This document shows, piece by piece, positions 1 through 38,226 of a DNA stretch of 64,000 bases. The translations under genes were made by a program, and so were the position numbers. The stretch spans positions 1,054,001 through 1,118,000 of the forward strand of contig NZ_CP061205.1 in assembly GCF_015240255.1 (NCBI RefSeq), written 5' to 3'. Source of the DNA: Kordiimonas pumila (GTDB lineage Bacteria > Pseudomonadota > Alphaproteobacteria > Sphingomonadales > Kordiimonadaceae). Every line of letters begins with the position of its first letter. Positions within the stretch are counted from its first letter, which is position 1. A model generated the notes under the pieces. It was not told where the DNA came from. It did no database searches and was given only the letters and a program-made list of their open reading frames with translations.

Positions 1-2522
1 ATATCTGTCCCGTCGCCTTCCTTAGCACCAACCCTTACTACATGAAGCATCAGCAAAGGTTTTCCACGTACTGCTCTATAATGAAAATCTGATACATTTT
101 TGTCAGGGTCTTCTTCTCGGGCTAATAATTCGGCTGCACCTTTCTGACCCTGAGACAAACCTAGTTTTTCATCTCCTCTACTAGCGAGCCTGCCTTTGGC
201 CAACTTCCAGAAGCCATCTTCCAGTTTAGCCGTATTACGTTCCTGAGGCCCCAATGAAAGAGGTTGAGCTGGATTGGCATTACTTTTTTTCGATATAAGC
301 AAAACATCAGAATGAAGGTACTTGCTGCTAATTTTCCTTAAAAACTCCAGCGCTCCAATCTTGAGTTCCTGCTGATCGGAATAAACTTTGTATCTGGAAA
401 TGAAGTTTTCAATACGGTGTGTTGGTACATCGGGAATGAGCCACCCTTTTTCAGTCGGAACTAATTTATCAGCTCCTTCATCAAAACCATTTTCAATAGA
501 ACTTTCGAAAAGGCTGTTATTATGTGCAATAACTCCTGAGGAAGATGAAAGAAGATGGCTCTCCACAATTCTGCCGCTGAAATTATGCTCAACGGTTACT
601 CTTTGGCCTGTCCGCATCTTATTTGCAGCCGTAATTAAAAGGCGGTCAGGGTGCTTTTGAACATATAAACCAAACTGTTCAGGACTTAACCTATCTCTAC
701 GCATTTGTTTTATCTGTGAACGGAGTTCTTCTGACGCTTCTGCAATATGTGCATACCAGTTTATGGAATCCTCATTCAGATATACTCTGCACAAATCATC
801 GTAGCCAAGCCTGTAACCAAACCACCTGCCCATCTGCATGAGGGTGTCGTACATCCTCGTATTTCTGTACATATAACTAACACACAACCCTTCTATTGTT
901 AGGCCGCGTGAAAGGCTTAGTCCACCGATGGCTATGGCCGTAAGGCCGCCCCCATCCTTTTCATATCGTGAATAGTCCAGTGAATCCTGCGACTTGCTGT
1001 TAGCGACCAGAACTTTCATATTATCAAAAGCACTATAGAGATTGTCTTTTATGGCCTGCCAACTAACCCCACATCCGACATATTGAGTATCATATGCCTG
1101 CCTTAATTCCCTCATGTAAGTATTTACAGAAGAAATGTGTTCTGGCATTTTATAATTAGCCCTTACTGCGTCCTCAACGGCCTGAATATGCTGACTTACA
1201 AAATCTCTCACTACCTCCTGAACGGCAACAAATCTGGACACATTGATCATCATAGAGCAATGTTTATTCTGCTGTCCTCGAGTATTTCGGATTGTCTTGG
1301 CTATGATGAATTGATTGATTGCTTCATATAAGGATGGAGGTAAATCAAATATCTCATGGTCTTTTTTATGAGTTAGTCGGATATATTCTTCTGCATCATT
1401 GATGACTTCCAAAATTTTTCCACTGCTTTCATCATCAATAAAAACTTTGTCCGGTCCGAAATATGTATTTGGTGCATCAAGACAGTAGATAAAGTCTTTT
1501 GGAAAAAGCTCATTGTATATTTCGGGATTAATAAAAACATTTGCAAATGGTGTTGCCGTATATCCTACATAGCAGGACTTCTCAAAAAGGCCCAGAATGT
1601 CCCTGATCATCGTATTTGTTTTGGTAGGATCAAGTTCTTCTTTATTTGTATTGATTGACGCATTATCGGCTTCATCATCAATCATCAGCATCGGTACATC
1701 AGCTATCCGACCATCACCAGATGCATTCAAGTCTTTTAACCAATTATGCAAAGCCCGCAGTGTGTGAACATTCTTTTTAATGACAAGAATAAATGGTTTA
1801 CTAAAGTCCGTAAGCTTCGTCCCAAATTGATTGGCGATGCTCTTATCAAAATCTTTATAAATATTGGTTACGGTGACGGGAGTGGGATAACTACTGCCCA
1901 TCAAAACCCCAACACCTTTGGAGGAACGGTTCTCTGGATCGCTTGAGCGGCCAACAAATCCACTGTCTATCCGCTCCTGTGTCTGTTTTCTTAAGTTGTT
2001 ATGAATGCCTGCAATTACAATAATAAATTTATAGCCTGCATCTGCAGCTTTACCTATGACTCCTAAATAGTTCGCTGTTTTGCCGGACTGCACGTGTCCA
2101 ATGACCAGCCCTTTTCTGTCCCATGCCCCCTCACTTTCCGGATTCTGCAGGAGACTAAGGATATTGTCTCCAACGTCAGATAGTTTTTGTATGACGCGAG
2201 AATTCCATTTTTCAGATTCCAAATACTTGGCGTAAGCATTGCTATAAGTCCATTTGATATCAGAGCGTTTGTTTACCCACTCTTCATCATGATCAGCTTC
2301 GAAGTCGATAAGCGATATTCCTTCGCCCATTCTGGTATCTATCCTTGTAAGCACTTCTTGAACAACAGGGTCAACATCACCATCAAACGGAACAGATGGA
2401 GCAAGTGTAGTTGCCAGATTTCGGACTTCTTCCTGTGTTGGTATCTCAGACCTAGTGCTTAATAATTGCACTAAAGCACTTATCAAACTCTTCTCAGCCT
2501 CTAAGGAATTATTTTCAGTCAT
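1..2522 (-). CDS. Z1 domain helicase-like protein, 3' end outside window
   Basis: The frame is open from an ATG at 2522 to the left edge, giving at least 840 residues; the stop lies outside the window. I read a Walker A-like GHVQSGKT at about residues 142-149 and a Walker B-like DDEAD at about 282-286. This pattern belongs to the Z1 family, a superfamily-II-helicase-like NTPase predicted to act with MORC-type ATPases in restriction systems. Near the edge the frame reads PLLMLHVVR, still coding. The start overlaps the stop of the upstream GHKL gene (ATGACTGA), so translation is probably coupled. The likely role is ATP-dependent DNA translocation or remodelling during restriction. The DNA is AT-rich compared with the core genes to the right. 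The family is fairly sure; the biochemical role is inferred. Confidence 0.88.
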   Translation of the reverse strand, partial: MTENNSLEAEKSLISALVQLLSTRSEIPTQEEVRNLATTLAPSVPFDGDVDPVVQEVLTRIDTRMGEGISLIDFEADHDEEWVNKRSDIKWTYSNAYAKYLESEKWNSRVIQKLSDVGDNILSLLQNPESEGAWDRKGLVIGHVQSGKTANYLGVIGKAADAGYKFIIVIAGIHNNLRKQTQERIDSGFVGRSSDPENRSSKGVGVLMGSSYPTPVTVTNIYKDFDKSIANQFGTKLTDFSKPFILVIKKNVHTLRALHNWLKDLNASGDGRIADVPMLMIDDEADNASINTNKEELDPTKTNTMIRDILGLFEKSCYVGYTATPFANVFINPEIYNELFPKDFIYCLDAPNTYFGPDKVFIDDESSGKILEVINDAEEYIRLTHKKDHEIFDLPPSLYEAINQFIIAKTIRNTRGQQNKHCSMMINVSRFVAVQEVVRDFVSQHIQAVEDAVRANYKMPEHISSVNTYMRELRQAYDTQYVGCGVSWQAIKDNLYSAFDNMKVLVANSKSQDSLDYSRYEKDGGGLTAIAIGGLSLSRGLTIEGLCVSYMYRNTRMYDTLMQMGRWFGYRLGYDDLCRVYLNEDSINWYAHIAEASEELRSQIKQMRRDRLSPEQFGLYVQKHPDRLLITAANKMRTGQRVTVEHNFSGRIVESHLLSSSSGVIAHNNSLFESSIENGFDEGADKLVPTEKGWLIPDVPTHRIENFISRYKVYSDQQELKIGALEFLRKISSKYLHSDVLLISKKSNANPAQPLSLGPQERNTAKLEDGFWKLAKGRLASRGDEKLGLSQGQKGAAELLAREEDPDKNVSDFHYRAVRGKPLLMLHVVRVGAKEGDGTD

Positions 2523-3996
2523 TATCTTGCCCCTTAATAAAGCCTTCTATTATTTCATCTCTTCCCTCAAATAAACGTGTCGAAGAAATGACATCCTTAA
2601 AGATTTCAGCATTGAATGAACCATCCGGAAAAAGAGTCTTCTGAATAAGTCTTAGTTGATCTGTGATCTCATCCTCGTCATAGGCTTGAGCTCCAATATT
2701 TTGCGGTTCAGTTGAATAATCTGAATAGATCATTTCATATGGAATAGATGCAGTTATTGATTTAATCAGAGCTGCAAATTGCTCTCTGTCTTCGTTGTTT
2801 AACTGCTCAGAAAATGCTGATACTAACGGGTGGTCATTGTTAACCTCGTATTGAATGCTGCCCTTTTCTGCATATCTTTCCCATATAGGAGCTTTTGTCT
2901 CGTTGAATAGTTTCTGACCTCGTTTTCGATGCACTCTAGTACTGCGGCTTGTTATTTGATTAATGATTTGTTTTATTCTTTCACGTACTGGTCGAGGAGG
3001 TCTTGCGCGAGATTTTTTGATATCAATAGTCCAGTTTTCGTCCATTGAATTGGGGAAATCTATTTGGACCCTTGCTAGTTTTGTTGCTTCGCCTTTGGGG
3101 ATAAGTCGAAACCAGTCGCCCCATGCCATTAGCCTTCCATTTCGATAGATATAAGCTCCTTGGTTTGAAATAAAGTCGCTTCGATCCTGATAGAAATCGT
3201 ATTCGGAAGCAGATAGTTTAGAATGATGAGGTAGAACAAATGGTTGAATCTTAACGGTATCACCATCAATTCTTATTTTTTCCTCTGGTAATACTTGGGT
3301 TGCCTTATTGGTTCTGCAAAAAGGATCAAATGGGACAACTTCATGGCCGTTAATGGAAATTCTAATTTTGGATGACGCTTTGTATTCACCAGATAAATAT
3401 CGATGAAAAACCAAAGACAGATGACGTTCTAATACGGCGAGTTTCTGATTTACCGTTTCATCTCTCGCTTTACCCGATAAATCCTCAAAAAGTCGGTCGA
3501 GGTTTTGCCAGACTACAAGTGTCCCATCTTTTAGAAGTTCATTAACATATTCAAAATCATTAATTTCATTCTGATTAAGTATGTTTATGAGCCAATCATC
3601 TTTCTCATCAACTAAATTTAAATCCCACTGAGCAGCGACACGTTCACCACTTTTAGCTGAAATAACTGTCAACTGCCTGCACTGAGAGAAGGAAGCTGTT
3701 TTCAGACCTAAGCCAAATCTTCCTAAATCATCAGGTTCGCGTCGTACTTTTGGGTTTACTGAGCCATGTTTCATCGCTCTGATTAACTCGCCTCTATCCA
3801 TTCCATAGCCATTATCCAATATGGAAAGAAATGGATTATCGCCTGCCAACACACAATAAATATCAATTTGGGTGGCATTCGCTGTAATACTGTTATCAAT
3901 TATGTCAGCAACAGCGGATTCTAGTGAGTACCCTAAATCACGCATGGATTCAGAAAGTGAGGAAGCACTAGGAGGAAGCTGGAGTGTTTTAGCCAT
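2515..3996 (-). CDS. MORC-type GHKL ATPase of a restriction-modification operon
   Basis: The 493-residue protein has a Bergerat-fold ATPase at the N-terminus: an N-box around DIIDNS (31-36), the ATP-lid motif DNGYGM (61-66) and the G2 motif GRFGLGLKT (92-100). This matches the prokaryotic MORC/MutL-like GHKL ATPases found with Vsr, Z1 and C5-methylase genes. Such ATPases probably dimerise on ATP binding and clamp DNA. The C-terminal half has no motif I can name. It overlaps vsr by 8 bases upstream and the Z1 gene by 8 bases downstream, so the three are probably translated together. It is cytoplasmic with no membrane segment. MutL itself is unlikely because of the context and the absence of MutL C-terminal features. 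Confidence 0.9.
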   Translation of the reverse strand: MAKTLQLPPSASSLSESMRDLGYSLESAVADIIDNSITANATQIDIYCVLAGDNPFLSILDNGYGMDRGELIRAMKHGSVNPKVRREPDDLGRFGLGLKTASFSQCRQLTVISAKSGERVAAQWDLNLVDEKDDWLINILNQNEINDFEYVNELLKDGTLVVWQNLDRLFEDLSGKARDETVNQKLAVLERHLSLVFHRYLSGEYKASSKIRISINGHEVVPFDPFCRTNKATQVLPEEKIRIDGDTVKIQPFVLPHHSKLSASEYDFYQDRSDFISNQGAYIYRNGRLMAWGDWFRLIPKGEATKLARVQIDFPNSMDENWTIDIKKSRARPPRPVRERIKQIINQITSRSTRVHRKRGQKLFNETKAPIWERYAEKGSIQYEVNNDHPLVSAFSEQLNNEDREQFAALIKSITASIPYEMIYSDYSTEPQNIGAQAYDEDEITDQLRLIQKTLFPDGSFNAEIFKDVISSTRLFEGRDEIIEGFIKGQDND

Positions 3997-4414
3997 TATA
4001 TCCCCCAGATAGATTATTAGCGATATTTCTTAATACATATTCTGGGCGCTCTTTGAGTTCACACTCCCAAACAGTAATTACTTTCCAACCGAATTCAATG
4101 AGGGCAGTCGTCTGTTCCTTGTCACGTTCTATGGTTCTGGCAAACTTCTTCTCCCAGAAGTCAATTCTGGTTTTCGGTGCCGCAGCTTTTTTGCATCCTT
4201 CATGTCGATGCCAAAAGCAACCATTGACAAAAACAACTGATTTGAATTTCTTCAATACTAGGTCTGGCTTTCCAGGGAGCGATTTATCGTGAAGGCGAAA
4301 CCTGTATCCTGACCTATGGAGCAAAGACCGTAAAACCATTTCGGGTTTGGTGTTTTTGCCACGAATACGCGACATATTGTTACTTCTTTGCTCGGTTGTT
4401 AGGACATCTACCAT
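3989..4414 (-). CDS. vsr: Very short patch repair endonuclease (Vsr)
   Basis: The 141-residue protein matches Vsr nucleases. It has the N-terminal TTEQRSNNMSRIRGKNTKPE block, the catalytic Asp in GKPDLV (D51) and the zinc/active-site segment FVNGCFWHRHEGC (62-74), with His69 and His71 placed as in E. coli Vsr. Vsr nicks DNA 5' of a T:G mismatch created by deamination of 5-methylcytosine. In MORC/Z1 operons a Vsr-fold protein may instead be the restriction nuclease. The ATG has a very strong ribosome site (AGGAGG, 6 bases before it). It begins 2 bases after the 246-residue gene and overlaps the GHKL gene. The family is certain; repair versus restriction is open. Confidence 0.95.
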   Translation of the reverse strand: MVDVLTTEQRSNNMSRIRGKNTKPEMVLRSLLHRSGYRFRLHDKSLPGKPDLVLKKFKSVVFVNGCFWHRHEGCKKAAAPKTRIDFWEKKFARTIERDKEQTTALIEFGWKVITVWECELKERPEYVLRNIANNLSGGYNG

Positions 4415-4416
4415 TG

Positions 4417-5157
4417 TTAACCTCCTAAAAACCTGGATAATATGCCCAAGGCTTCTGTGAGCGAGCCATATAGATTAAATACTTTAGCTAATACTAAAGG
4501 AGCGGCCGTAACAAGGGCAGCATCAATGAATTTTGTTAACCTTCCTAAAAGCCAATCCCAAACCCGAGACCGGGCGCTCAGCATATTTTCTTCAACGGTT
4601 TTTAGTTTTTTCTTATCCAGATTGGGTTTGATTAATTCTTCTTTTACCGCAGCTGATATTTGGTCGATTTCCTGGATAACTTCAGCTGGAATGTCATGGT
4701 CTAAAATAAGCTCAGGAGGGTTATTATGTCCTCGACCGTACTGTCCTTTCACATCCGCTAGAGCATCATCCAAATGTTCTAATGCTTTTATCAGATGGCC
4801 TTTGGTTTTGTTATTTATTTGATTGGTAGCCGGTGCTCGAAACTGATTCAAAAATTCGGTCGGGTATCTGTCTAATATCTCATGTATTCTGGCTATAACT
4901 CCAGAACCTACTTGCGGCGCAGGGGAATAATATGAAACGGTTTGCATTCCTCGCAGTTGGAAAACATGCGAAATATTTCTCAATCTGTATCTAAGTGATG
5001 CATCATTGCGGGTAGAAAGAGAACCTGACAGCACTCCATTTATAAATTCATTTCTATCAATTTCTATTTGCTTAATTTGTGAGTGCAACAAATAGAAATA
5101 AGCGTGTATTGAAGCAGTTAATTCAGCATCGCTCCATGGACGATTGCCTTTTTCCAT
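4417..5157 (-). CDS. Unknown protein: McrA-N-like domain plus hydrophobic C-terminus
   Basis: This 246-residue protein sits inside the restriction operon and I do not recognise a named family for the whole chain. Residues about 6-95 (PWSDAEL..., YRLRNISHVF) resemble the small N-terminal domain that precedes HNH modules in McrA-like modification-dependent nucleases, but no HNH motif follows. A GHNNPPEL segment (143-150) starts a helical, charged linker, and residues about 211-244 contain two hydrophobic stretches that could be membrane helices. The ribosome site (GGAGG) lies in the end of the methylase gene, and vsr follows after 2 bases. It may be a specificity, sensor or membrane-effector subunit; this is inference from position and layout. 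Confidence 0.75.
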   Translation of the reverse strand: MEKGNRPWSDAELTASIHAYFYLLHSQIKQIEIDRNEFINGVLSGSLSTRNDASLRYRLRNISHVFQLRGMQTVSYYSPAPQVGSGVIARIHEILDRYPTEFLNQFRAPATNQINNKTKGHLIKALEHLDDALADVKGQYGRGHNNPPELILDHDIPAEVIQEIDQISAAVKEELIKPNLDKKKLKTVEENMLSARSRVWDWLLGRLTKFIDAALVTAAPLVLAKVFNLYGSLTEALGILSRFLGG

Positions 5158-5160
5158 GAT

Positions 5161-6639
5161 TTATACCTCCACCCTGTCCAACACATCAGCAATGATTTCA
5201 GCGATCTGTTTTGCGAGATAAGGAGGAACTGCATTGCCAACCTGATGATATTGTTGAGTGCGCGGCCCTTCAAAATGGTAATTATCAGGAAATGTTTGCA
5301 GCCTTGCTGCTTCCCTAACTGTCAGACTTCGACATTGTGACGCATCATAGTGAATGAAGTAATGGCCATCCTTTGAAATATGAGATGTTACTGTTGTTGA
5401 GAATTTATTTGGTATCTGAACCCGAAAACGATCAGAAAACATTTTCCCTGCTCGCCCTGCTTCTACATTGCGATGATTTGGAAGAAGGTCGTGCGGGAAG
5501 TCAGCAAGCTTTGGGGATACATTCATTGATTCCGCATAACTTGCTGCAAACAAATAGCGATAAAGATCACTTTCCATATGCGATCTGGTTTCATGTCCGG
5601 TTATTTCATTAAGGTTTTTATCCGAGTACCAATCCGTCATAACTTTAGGTGGAATATATTGTTTGGAGCTTCTGGATTTGGGCAAGGGTGCCTTTAGGGA
5701 GTATGATAATTTGCTAGCCACATCACGCACAACCTGAGTCCAACGGTCAGTTGAATCTCCCCCCTTGGACACCCCGCTTCTAATCCTGGGCATTCCATCC
5801 AAGACATCTTTAACTGTTGGTGATGGTGATTTTTTAAGAGTTCCCGGTATTATGTCTAAGTCTGATCTGATGCCTACAATGAACATTCGGTGCCTAGCCT
5901 GTGGTACTCCGTACTCCTCGGCTTTTATTATGAAAGATGCAGGAGATAACTCACCAGTTAAATCAACTTGTTCACTCAAAGAGTATAATTTATAGCTGAT
6001 GCCATTTCCATCCTCACCAACTGCCCGCTTTGGCCTTGAAAGGTCTTGTGTGATTTTGTGCGCTATGGAAACGCCATCCACTTTTGCAGAGACTAACCCT
6101 TTAACATTTTCCATAACAAATACCGGAGGTGAGTGATCAATAATAATCTTGAGATATTCTTTGTATAAGAAATGTTTTTCATCCTGTGCAAAATCAGGAT
6201 CATTTGCACGCCTGGATCGACCAACCAAAGAATAAGCCTGACATGGCGGCCCGCCTACAAGCGCCCATTTCTTTGTGTCTTTAAGTTTTTCTGTGATTAT
6301 ATTTTTAACTTGGTCATGTGTATCACTGCCAAGCGATATTCGAAGTGCGCATTCTCTGACATGCGACCATTGTTTTGGGAACATCTCCTGTAAACTGATT
6401 AAGTCAATCTGCCCCGAAATATAATCATAGTAAGCTTTAGGTACTTTACCTTTTCGGAAAGAGCGAAAGAAATGGCGTAGCTGTAAAGTTTTATGAGCAT
6501 GTTCATCACGCTCGATACAGGCAACAGATTGAAAAACATGCTTATCGCTTTTTGATAAACTAGCAAATCCCTCGCCGAGACCACCAGGGCCAGCAAATAG
6601 GTCAACAATAGGGTATGGTCGTAGCTTATGGTTTTTCAA
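5161..6639 (-). CDS. DNA (cytosine-5) methyltransferase
   Basis: The 492-residue enzyme transfers a methyl group from SAM to C5 of cytosine. Visible motifs are motif I DLFAGPGG (13-20), the catalytic Cys in GGPPCQAYS (Cys133), ENV in motif VI (177-179), QARHR in motif VIII (247-251) and the C-terminal QVGNAVPP. The C-terminal motifs are intact, so it should be active. The only sensible start is TTG at 6639, preceded by a strong GGGAGGG seven bases upstream; a weak start codon with a strong ribosome site may tune methylase dosage. It is the first gene of the leftward restriction operon and provides self-protection. Its neighbour vsr is a typical partner of C5-methylases. The target sequence cannot be read from the protein. 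Confidence 0.96.
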   Translation of the reverse strand: MKNHKLRPYPIVDLFAGPGGLGEGFASLSKSDKHVFQSVACIERDEHAHKTLQLRHFFRSFRKGKVPKAYYDYISGQIDLISLQEMFPKQWSHVRECALRISLGSDTHDQVKNIITEKLKDTKKWALVGGPPCQAYSLVGRSRRANDPDFAQDEKHFLYKEYLKIIIDHSPPVFVMENVKGLVSAKVDGVSIAHKITQDLSRPKRAVGEDGNGISYKLYSLSEQVDLTGELSPASFIIKAEEYGVPQARHRMFIVGIRSDLDIIPGTLKKSPSPTVKDVLDGMPRIRSGVSKGGDSTDRWTQVVRDVASKLSYSLKAPLPKSRSSKQYIPPKVMTDWYSDKNLNEITGHETRSHMESDLYRYLFAASYAESMNVSPKLADFPHDLLPNHRNVEAGRAGKMFSDRFRVQIPNKFSTTVTSHISKDGHYFIHYDASQCRSLTVREAARLQTFPDNYHFEGPRTQQYHQVGNAVPPYLAKQIAEIIADVLDRVEV

Positions 6640-7713: not shown

Positions 7714-7790
7714 TGGTGCCCGGGGGCGGATTTGAACCACCGACACGCGGATTTTCAATCCGCTGCTCTACCCCTGAGCTACCCGGGCAC
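7714..7790 (-). tRNA. tRNA-Phe (GAA)
   Basis: It folds as a complete cloverleaf with acceptor GTGCCCG/CGGGCAC, D-loop AGCTCAGGGGTAGAGC, anticodon loop TTGAAAA (anticodon GAA), T-arm GGTTCAAATCC and an encoded CCA. Its 3' end points towards the AT-rich island, so it is a plausible integration target. Confidence 0.97.
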
Positions 7791-35627: not shown

Positions 35628-35635
35628 GCCTGAGT

Positions 35636-35730
35636 GCCATACTGGGACACCCGCGTAGGTGGGTGTCCCAGTATGGCAGTGAAACTGGACTCCCTTCCCT
35701 CGGCTTTCTGCCTCACCGGGAATGACAGAT
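35636..35730. repeat. Palindromic repeat-like element after htpG
   Basis: A perfect 17-base inverted repeat (GCCATACTGGGACACCC, 8-base spacer, reverse complement; 35636-35677) is followed by about 50 bases (to about 35730) containing GGACTCCC...GGGAATGACA. GTCATTCCCG-type sequences of this form are often dispersed palindromic repeats in alphaproteobacterial genomes. It may also serve as the htpG terminator. No second copy was seen in this window. Confidence 0.55.
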
Positions 35731-35737
35731 GATAATG

Positions 35738-38152
35738 TCAGGCACGTAAAAAACCAAGGGAGTAGACTTGCGGTCTCAGCTTCTGGCTTAAGGTTTTATA
35801 AGCATTTTCAAACAATGAGAAGTCAATGGTGACATAATCACCGCTTTCATTGCGCTTTTTCAAGGCATTACGGACCTGATACCAGCCTACATCAGGTCGG
35901 TTGAGCTTAAGTTCATCACGGACACTATGAACATCGGTTTTTGAAAAATATTCTTGCCATAAGTCGCGGCCAGCATCCAGAACGGCAAGGGCTTCGAAAG
36001 AAAGTTTTTTGTCTACTAGGTACTGGGCCATAAAATCAGATTCAAAGCGGTCAGGGGCACCCACTTCTACTTCAGTATAGGGGATGAAATGATTCACGAT
36101 CGACCATTTTGCACCATTCCATTCGAGATCGTTGGCGCTGGCTGTCAGGTTACTGCCGCTAAATAGCATCCATATCAGGCAATCAGTCTTGAATTCATCA
36201 GATACAGGGACAGGTGGTTGTAAGAATTGGTCACGATCATTGAGCCACGTAGGTTTTATAAGACGCCTGACCGAAAATATGATTGCGGCTTTCCATAAGT
36301 TCTCTGGGGTTGCATAAAAACCTCGTCCGCTCCCATAACCAGAGGAAAAAATCATGGTTTTATTGCCTGCGTTTTGTAGATCATTTCCTGCACAGTTCAC
36401 CCAAGCTAAAGCACCATCAGCCCATTTTGTGCCTCGTAGATCTCCCTTGGCTGTCGCTGGTGTGATGGCATTCTTTAAAGGAACAACCTTGGTATTGTTA
36501 GTTGCAGGTCTATCCACCCAATCGGTTAGTAAAGGTTTATCTGAGGGGTTGAAAAATATCTTTTCGCCGATGGGTTGAGCCTGTTTATCCAAGACTTCGA
36601 CAGATATTTCTGTAATAGTTTCTTTTTTGGGGGTCACCATATTAGTTTTCCAGATCAGAAAACCGATAGGAAAATTACCCTTCAAGCCGTCAAAAGCTCG
36701 ACTGGGCACAATAAACCCATCCATGTATTTCACCTGCCAAGTGGTTCGAAACATATCAAGTGTGGGTGCATTAACATATTTTAATGTACTGAATATCGCC
36801 AAGGTGGCTGTTGGAATTTCTTTTGCGACCCTTGCAATAAATTGAGTATATAATTCATTACGGGCCTTTCCATATTCCGTCATAGCAGTGGCTGCAAATT
36901 TTGTTTTGGCAACGCCGCTTTTATTTTCTGCATTTTCTTTAATGGCTGTATTTTCGGAATTGGTTGCTTCAGCGTAGGGCGGATTGATAAGCACCAGAAT
37001 TTTTTTGCCCTCCGCAATGGCCTTTTTAAGGCCTTCAGGCATTTTATTGGTCAGGCTATAGTCAATTTGCCCATCATCCGTAATGTCATCATTCAAATAA
37101 TCATACTGAAAGCGAGTTGCGGCAACACAGGTTTTGGTGGCTCTCATCACATCCACATCAGCTTGGTCTAGTGTGCTCATATATATGTTGCGCGGGTTCG
37201 AATGTTTAACTTCCAGGTTCCCGACACCACAGCACATATCCCACACAATATAGTTTTTTTGCCAGTTTTTACCCAAGGTCTCTGTGAGTTTGTCATAAGC
37301 CTTATCCACCACATGCAGCGGGGTGTAATAAGCCCCTTTAAAGCTGCGTTCATCAAGTGGGATAAGGCTGTCACGCCGCTCGAGTAAATAATTGCGGTAT
37401 TCGGCTTTGGGTGGTCGATGGTAAATTGCCCAAAACTGGCGATATCCTTCCATATTACCTAGGTCATAGTTATGCCCTTCAAGGGTAAAAACAGGCTTGT
37501 CACCTTTGTGCAGTAATTCTGCGGGTAAATCTACATGTGTGGCGTATGTACCGTCACTCATAATATCGGCAAAGAATAGAAGGGCGTATTTATCTTCGCT
37601 AACACCTGTAATTTCCCGCCCAATCATATTGACCCATTTATCGAAAACCTGTTTCAGGTTATCAGGCGTGATCTGGGCGCGGATAATATCGCCTGATTTA
37701 ATTGCGGCTTTGGTGGTGCTGATAAACTCTTCAGCGTGCGTTGATATTTTAAAGGAGACAAAGTGGGTCCCGATATGGGTTGAGACCTCATCCAGTGCTT
37801 CTTTGGGAAACTGGCTGGCAGATTTTCCCCATTTGATGGTTTTCTTTTTAAGAAACGGTACAACGTCAGATGTTTTCATCAACGCAGCTTTCTCACAGTC
37901 AATAACTGCGAGAAATGGTGGTAGTGGTTCGCCTTTGTCCAGATCGGCTTGAACGTAATGAAGTAACTGCGTGAACATGGCATAGGTGGATGTGCCACCC
38001 TTGTCCTTCGCCTCAAACCAGATTTCCTTGGTGCGAATATCAATCAGCCCCTTGGTAAAGCTTTTTAGACTGAGAGCTTTGATATAAATGTCTTTTACAT
38101 CTTCTTCGGTTTTTGCGTGCTGGAGATTTTGATAAAGATTGGCTGCAGTCAT
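35738..38152 (-). CDS. Type IIG-like restriction-modification enzyme
   Basis: The 804-residue protein fuses a likely nuclease and an N6-adenine-type methylase. N-terminus: Asp38 and E47-A-K49 in IWFEAKD fit a PD-(D/E)XK site. Middle: motif X GAYYTP, SAM motif I DMCCGVGNLE and catalytic motif IV NPPYAE. The C-terminal part should recognise DNA. With no separate specificity or restriction gene nearby, it resembles a one-polypeptide type IIG enzyme. I start at ATG 38152 (a GTG four codons earlier is possible). It is a lone gene between htpG and the CNNM gene, next to a palindromic repeat, and looks somewhat AT-richer than its neighbours. Transfer is likely. Confidence 0.85.
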   Translation of the reverse strand: MTAANLYQNLQHAKTEEDVKDIYIKALSLKSFTKGLIDIRTKEIWFEAKDKGGTSTYAMFTQLLHYVQADLDKGEPLPPFLAVIDCEKAALMKTSDVVPFLKKKTIKWGKSASQFPKEALDEVSTHIGTHFVSFKISTHAEEFISTTKAAIKSGDIIRAQITPDNLKQVFDKWVNMIGREITGVSEDKYALLFFADIMSDGTYATHVDLPAELLHKGDKPVFTLEGHNYDLGNMEGYRQFWAIYHRPPKAEYRNYLLERRDSLIPLDERSFKGAYYTPLHVVDKAYDKLTETLGKNWQKNYIVWDMCCGVGNLEVKHSNPRNIYMSTLDQADVDVMRATKTCVAATRFQYDYLNDDITDDGQIDYSLTNKMPEGLKKAIAEGKKILVLINPPYAEATNSENTAIKENAENKSGVAKTKFAATAMTEYGKARNELYTQFIARVAKEIPTATLAIFSTLKYVNAPTLDMFRTTWQVKYMDGFIVPSRAFDGLKGNFPIGFLIWKTNMVTPKKETITEISVEVLDKQAQPIGEKIFFNPSDKPLLTDWVDRPATNNTKVVPLKNAITPATAKGDLRGTKWADGALAWVNCAGNDLQNAGNKTMIFSSGYGSGRGFYATPENLWKAAIIFSVRRLIKPTWLNDRDQFLQPPVPVSDEFKTDCLIWMLFSGSNLTASANDLEWNGAKWSIVNHFIPYTEVEVGAPDRFESDFMAQYLVDKKLSFEALAVLDAGRDLWQEYFSKTDVHSVRDELKLNRPDVGWYQVRNALKKRNESGDYVTIDFSLFENAYKTLSQKLRPQVYSLGFLRA

Positions 38153-38226
38153 CGTCTTATACACCCCACATTAAACGTATAACTACAGTATCTTGTTTAG
38201 CCAAATAGGCAAACTTTTAGGGATGT

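Follow-up and report, generated by a model that had tools for sequence, protein, structure and literature searches.

A solitary gene of Kordiimonas pumila is predicted to encode a single-chain type IIG restriction-modification enzyme of a patchily distributed family

The DNA analysed, here called the window, is a stretch of 64,000 nucleotides from Kordiimonas pumila (contig NZ_CP061205.1, positions 1,054,001 to 1,118,000). On its minus strand a long open reading frame is bordered on one side by the gene for HSP90 (htpG) and on the other by a CNNM/CBS/CorC gene, which is followed by the genes for 3-dehydroquinate synthase and shikimate kinase. An initial annotation had ascribed to this frame a solitary type IIG-like restriction-modification (R-M) enzyme. 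Residues are numbered from the ATG at 38152 (residue 1); an alternative GTG start at 38164 would make the R-M protein four residues longer. A search of the minus strand in the gap preceding the gene revealed no sigma-70-like site. The features dealt with below are:

35738..38152, minus strand: type IIG-like R-M gene, 804 amino acids plus stop (ATG at 38152, stop ending at 35738)
37688..38152, minus strand: predicted N-terminal PD-(D/E)XK-like nuclease domain, residues 1-155 approximately, from a model of residues 1-170 and structure alignment
38006..38041, minus strand: D38 to K49 with the predicted catalytic residues D38, E47 and K49, invariant in 73/73 rows
36653..37360, minus strand: predicted gamma-class adenine-N6 methyltransferase domain, residues 265-500 approximately, from weak TIGR02987 and MTase_II matches and structure matches
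37220..37240, minus strand: motif I region, D305-MCCGVG-311, C307-G311 invariant in 70/70 rows
36974..36985, minus strand: motif IV, NPPY, residues 390-393, invariant in 70/70 rows
36233..36667, minus strand: variable, presumed target-recognition region, residues 496-640 approximately, of low identity and part of an exchanged-looking block
35741..36232, minus strand: conserved C-terminal part, residues 641-804, with an inferred function; mean pairwise identity 0.73
3-6639, minus strand: defence island beside tRNA-Phe (7714-7788)

The motifs named in the initial annotation, D38, E47-A48-K49, CGVG (308-311) and NPPY (390-393), were all located at these positions in the 804-residue frame. Their conservation was examined in two alignments. 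In the main alignment the window protein was combined with 68 genome loci and one IMG/VR locus, giving 70 full-length rows. The 69 relatives are 63-76% identical to the R-M protein. Left out among 80 genome loci were nine which were not full length (three broken frames, six at contig ends) and three duplicates of a fourth locus. The second alignment comprised nuclease domains only (73 rows, identity down to 49%). D38, E47, A48 and K49 were invariant in 70/70 full-length rows and, together with E16 and E17, in 73/73 N-terminal rows. Likewise, C307-G311 and N390-Y393 did not vary in any of the 70 full-length rows. The motif pattern was likewise preserved in ten rows of 51-71% identity, half of which are also contained in the 70- and 73-row alignments; C308 is replaced by alanine in two more divergent rows, L129 and L136. 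Given this invariance across alignments, the conservation pattern indicates that the motifs are not due to chance. By sequence the gene is intact, and its product is probably active.

Residues 1-170 were modelled separately (pLDDT 90.2, pTM 0.86). VIA-align, used as a re-ranking of Foldseek's own match list, placed BpuSI first (Z 10.0 over 127 residues, 3.4 Å) and DrdV second (Z 8.7 over 110 residues, 2.6 Å). EcoR124I HsdR came third (Z 7.4); NucC, DpnI and further nucleases followed with Z values of 5-6. The nuclease domains of BpuSI, DrdV and HsdR, the best VIA-align rows, are of the PD-(D/E)XK superfamily. In the model D38 directly precedes strand 39-40, and strand 44-48 ends with E47-A-K49. 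The domain is thus predicted to carry D...(E)xK on central strands, as in the PD-(D/E)XK core fold. In the Foldseek list DrdV was first yet weak (best E 0.14) and mixed with unrelated folds. Therefore, the nuclease reading rests on VIA-align and on the motif and its conservation. Comparison of the domain profile with solved structures gave no sequence match at E up to 10, and the Pfam matches of the 73 domains were weak and scattered over unrelated families, each family appearing in at most 19/73. In BsaXI, alanine changes at E73, D90, E105 and K107 abolish activity, and these residues are needed for cleavage according to the available excerpt (PMC11997821). By analogy, E16/E17, D38, E47 and K49 of the R-M protein resemble the BsaXI set E73, D90, E105 and K107. 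The likely PD-(D/E)XK site of the initial annotation was thus supported: the modelled N-terminus aligns with nuclease folds, best with those of BpuSI and DrdV, and D38, E47 and K49 are invariant.

A protein which only methylates, orphan or regulatory, and in which the N-terminal domain is a structural relic would agree with the finding that some copies are broken (L002, L013 and L061 among the 80 loci, and two genomes with two-part copies). In a relic one would not expect the putative catalytic residues to be invariant in 73/73 rows down to 49% identity. At a mean pairwise identity of 0.77, the nuclease region is also no less conserved than the methylase (0.76). We consider such a methylase very unlikely and retain a predicted nuclease joined to a methyltransferase.

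The full-length model (pLDDT 84.2, pTM 0.63) had DrdV as its best match both in Foldseek (E 1.0e-09) and in VIA-align (Z 16.8, 356 residues, rmsd 11.4), where BpuSI reached Z 14.5. It also matched LlaBIII (Z 15.2), BrxX (13.5) and BsaXI (13.3) and, mostly from about residue 260 onward, the gamma methylases M.TaqI, CamA and EcoKI M as well as MmeI. The alignments with CamA and M.BseCI extend to model residue 799-804. Because the whole-model rmsd values against DrdV, BpuSI and BsaXI are large (11-17 Å), the domain arrangement is not settled by these matches. The R-M protein had no sequence match to solved structures at E up to 1, neither as single sequence nor as full-length profile. NPPY belongs to the motif group of gamma adenine methylases, as stated in an excerpt of PMC4081073; in type IIG enzymes, according to this excerpt, one chain unites a cleavage domain with a gamma-methylation domain, and the specificity module is either C-terminal or separate. 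The N6-adenine methylase motifs postulated initially are in place, invariant in 70/70 rows and located in a part matching gamma-class structures. Going by sequence and models, a nuclease and a gamma-class methylase are combined in one chain, as is typical of type IIG. This agrees with the initial assignment, in which the enzyme was solitary and carried a PD-(D/E)XK-like nuclease, as do DrdV as best whole-model match and BpuSI and DrdV as the best matches of the N-terminal domain.

Libraries of protein models barely recognised the window protein. Pfam at E up to 1 reported MTS alone (14.9 bits vs a cut-off of 23), and NCBIfam TIGR02987 at 25.8 bits, below the cut-off of 353.5. PADLOC gave two weak MTase_II matches (1.7e-04) and PHROGs one match (E 0.047). 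Of five more divergent members none reached a Pfam or NCBIfam cut-off; the best PADLOC value, applied without cut-offs, was 2.2e-07. The family appears to be unmodelled in the libraries tried, while the kind of enzyme is known. In the excerpts of the type IIG literature at hand we met no description of this family, which is nameless; REBASE may hold putative members. A Jma19592I-like enzyme in an excerpt of PMC11837570 is a lead. As a common, well-conserved family is poorly recognised, counts of defence systems may miss it.

A scan of 84,980 species yielded 160 stretches which encode relatives of the R-M protein. The best 80 of the 160 (63-76% identity) came mostly from Pseudomonadota and Bacteroidota, with one Ignavibacteria bin (Ignavibacteriota); among them were the cultured strains Flavobacterium xanthum, Leeia oryzae and Chromatium weissei. 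Whole-genome searches, with the own genome counted, found the gene in 1/29 genomes of the family Kordiimonadaceae, 7/385 of the class and 5/398 of the phylum. Occurrence is sporadic. In the tree the window protein stands beside an alphaproteobacterial bin (support 89) within a Pseudomonadota group. Over 69 rows from the closest relatives the tree has 5 phylum-label changes vs a least possible number of 2; as more than one change is no proof of transfer, this lends moderate support to cross-phylum transfer. Broken frames were present in L002, L013 and L061 among the 80 loci. In two further genomes (G756, contig C10; G701, contig C28) one relative is in two parts about 9.3 kb apart and one in two overlapping frames. 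Distant Ligilactobacillus plasmid proteins of about 24% identity align over most of the length, and a Helicobacter plasmid carries broken pieces of a distant relative. These distant proteins were not counted as members, as D/E/K lacked a confident alignment in L086.

Relatives were also searched for on mobile DNA. Plasmids carried them in 15/72,556 records, 4 with more than 55% identity; 12 of these 15 records have them as 'hypothetical protein', and the other three are without annotation there. Two plasmids are about 10 kb in size; their annotations list six and ten genes, with no restriction component among them. In IMG/VR six loci encode relatives. Four of these were examined: L136 has tail genes on one side and an integrase gene on the other, and L134, L137 and L082 have an integrase gene nearby. 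Such places, like the small plasmids, would suit a mobile-element gene with the main role of excluding rivals or of keeping its carrier (addiction) rather than of defending the cell. On the other hand, the window copy adjoins housekeeping genes, and 50,697 phage records had no match to the R-M protein at E 1e-5. We regard this main role as unlikely. It is compatible with a type IIG enzyme.

Around 78 relatives no recurring partner gene was found within 8 kb (899 open reading frames; many loci end early at contig ends). The two largest neighbour clusters comprised 10 and 8 of 78 loci and are represented by an ABC-transporter ATPase and by a sensor kinase, respectively. Their members are found at scattered distances and on both sides of the R-M gene, and they were rejected as partners. 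The largest one-sided groups had 4/78 loci. A PLD-like gene lies downstream in 3/78 loci (L003, L019, L020) at a median distance of 10 bases, the domain being confirmed in L020. With 3/78 and 4/78 loci neither this gene nor the one-sided groups were counted as partners. A codirectional open reading frame within 50 bases on either side was absent from 42/78 loci; the 36/78 loci with one may have operon links. The 'no companion genes' of the initial annotation holds for the direct neighbours (HSP90, CNNM, 3-dehydroquinate synthase and shikimate kinase), and none recurs in the 78 loci. The R-M gene looks solitary in its family as well as in the window. In this context we considered a larger system, similar to BREX with PglX, to type ISP or to type IIB with a separate specificity subunit, with partners elsewhere. 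The model matches to LlaBIII (Z 15.2), BrxX (13.5) and BsaXI (13.3) are in its favour; a Pfam helicase match is missing, no partner recurs within 8 kb of the 78 relatives, some with short flanks, and the plasmids of about 10 kb hold no gene annotated as a restriction part. A larger system is therefore extremely unlikely in our view, and a single-chain enzyme is preferred.

The place between htpG and the CNNM gene was compared among relatives. Genus-wide, the HtpG and CNNM proteins were each matched in 19/19 genomes. Both genes were present together in 16 of 18 stretches from relatives (L109-L126); the other two stretches did not hold both. The genes are convergent, and in the 16 relatives they are separated by an interval of 87 to 4674 bases whose contents differ. 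Thus, the 'core gene stretch' of the initial annotation gives way to a variable interval. In the window it measures 2599 bases, 184 of which are outside the frame. The suggested comparison for an empty site gave other genes or no genes at this place. The genomes with the closest HtpG, G011 and G023, have 563-564 bases here, with a BLUF-domain gene in G011. G009, G024, G025 and G026 contain a large gene; it codes for a TonB-dependent receptor in G025 and, reading the translation, apparently also in G009, G024 and G026. In G010, G018 and G020 the interval has no open reading frame of at least 100 amino acids, and that of G018 (163 bases) is close to the window's 184 bases without the frame. The R-M gene was in none of the compared genus relatives, neither in the interval nor in the genome. 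It was absent from 28/28 other genomes of the taxonomic family; several of these are 76-83% complete, and counting those at least 90% complete the gene is in 1/25. Relatives do not share the gene at this place: 1/29 family genomes has it, the window's own. The G+C content of the R-M frame is 43.6% vs 51.7% for htpG and 51.9% for the CNNM gene. Because the gene is absent from the 28/28 family genomes and relatives hold other or no genes there, horizontal acquisition between htpG and the CNNM gene is likely. The case for acquisition by this genome is mainly that relatives lack the gene, and loss in the others may be the alternative. At the borders of the R-M gene no long direct repeat was seen.

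Just past the htpG stop there is a perfect 18-base inverted repeat (35635-35678; RNA fold -44.4 kcal/mol, z -8.3). As the end of a mobile element it was discarded: a genome search yielded short, weak matches but not another complete copy. The simpler reading is a hairpin where convergent genes meet, which may be a terminator.

The initial annotation had counted a second, unrelated restriction system 30 kb away. This system, the island at 3-6639, by its profile scores contains an MzaC-like Z1 protein (9.7e-134) that runs off the window and an MzaB-like HATPase (4.3e-80), together with a C5-cytosine methylase and a PDC-S36-like protein. Its DNA is A+T-richer (0.39-0.44 G+C). With MzaC and MzaB beside the methylase it scores as an Mza-like island, a type of defence other than simple paired restriction genes.

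Next to the invariant parts the R-M family has a variable one. Mean pairwise identity over 69 rows was 0.77 for the nuclease, 0.81 for the linker, 0.76 for the methylase and 0.73 for the C-terminus, and 0.51 for residues 505-640. Residues 501-600 were the least alike window in 1375 of 1705 pairs with a mean window identity of at least 0.70. Window by window, the proteins of L030 and L075 have 96-100% identity from residue 1 to 390, 33-87% over 391-675 and 100% from 736. Their DNA is 94-99% identical in the first 1200 bases; identity is 53-77% over 1200-1950, rises to 81-91% over 1950-2250 and reaches 98% in the final 237 bases. The adjoining flanks do not match. The proteins of L009 and L079 have the opposite pattern, i.e. 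77-100% across 376-675 and 46-87% outside. Judged by these pairs, a module of residues 385-680 approximately seems to move as a block, and relatives appear to exchange it, recognition region included; one such pair could be mimicked by chimeric assembly of metagenome contigs. A variable block towards the C-terminus and no recurring S gene nearby fit a shared recognition module, predicted to be C-terminal. Domain exchange is named for type IIG in an excerpt of PMC4081073 and for Helicobacter methylases in one of PMC3983042. The principle of exchanging specificity modules is therefore not new.

The domain order, the fold matches, the invariant motifs, the lack of a recurring partner, the patchy occurrence and the block of differing identity, as they appear in sequences and models, make it very probable that the R-M protein belongs to the single-chain restriction-modification enzymes of type IIG. 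Its C-terminal recognition domain would read a short, probably asymmetric DNA sequence. Using S-adenosylmethionine, the central gamma-class methyltransferase would methylate N6 of an adenine in the recognised site. Sites lacking the methyl group would be cleaved, at a short and constant distance, by the PD-(D/E)XK nuclease of the N-terminus. For this the nuclease probably pairs, as in DrdV, with that of another bound enzyme molecule. The enzyme would serve in defence. As one recognition module would serve both activities, the gene could work alone and move alone. As type IIG enzymes are well known, the gene itself is unsurprising. Somewhat short of an even chance we place the wider proposal that the family is a distinct, unmodelled type IIG branch which spreads as a bare gene among distant bacteria and is respecified by swapping residues 385-680 approximately, one continuous module from NPPY through the recognition domain, while the nuclease and the remaining methylase stay as they are. 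If true, the family would be a collection of ready-made enzymes whose many target sequences are as yet unknown. The apparent module swaps offer a direct route from recognition residues to target sequences.

Among known systems, type ISP differs in having a superfamily 2 helicase-like ATPase, which Pfam did not detect here at E up to 1, and in size (LlaBIII 1484-1517 residues vs 804). BREX with PglX differs as well: there are no brx genes among the direct neighbours and no partner recurs in 78 loci. Type IIB BsaXI has, in the excerpt seen, nuclease residues in a comparable E, D, E-x-K arrangement, and matched the whole model with Z 13.3, yet it is (RM)2S with an S subunit, whereas no S gene recurs near the R-M family. 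The type IIL MmeI family shares the single R-M chain, and its methylase part aligns with Z 13.7 over 223 residues. Its specificity changes via pairs of residues according to the excerpt of PMC4081073, whereas a long block differs here, and the R-M protein has no sequence match to PDB chains. RM.BpuSI (type IIG, PDB 3s1s; 870 residues, no profile sequence match) is the best match of the N-terminal domain. In the same excerpt its order is N-terminal nuclease, central gamma methylase and C-terminal specificity domain (PMC4081073), an order predicted for the R-M protein also. RM.DrdV (type IIG, PDB 7lo5/7lvv) is longer, about 1010 residues vs 804, and without a profile sequence match at E up to 1; yet this single-chain enzyme is the best structural match of the whole model, and its nuclease domain aligns with Z 8.7.
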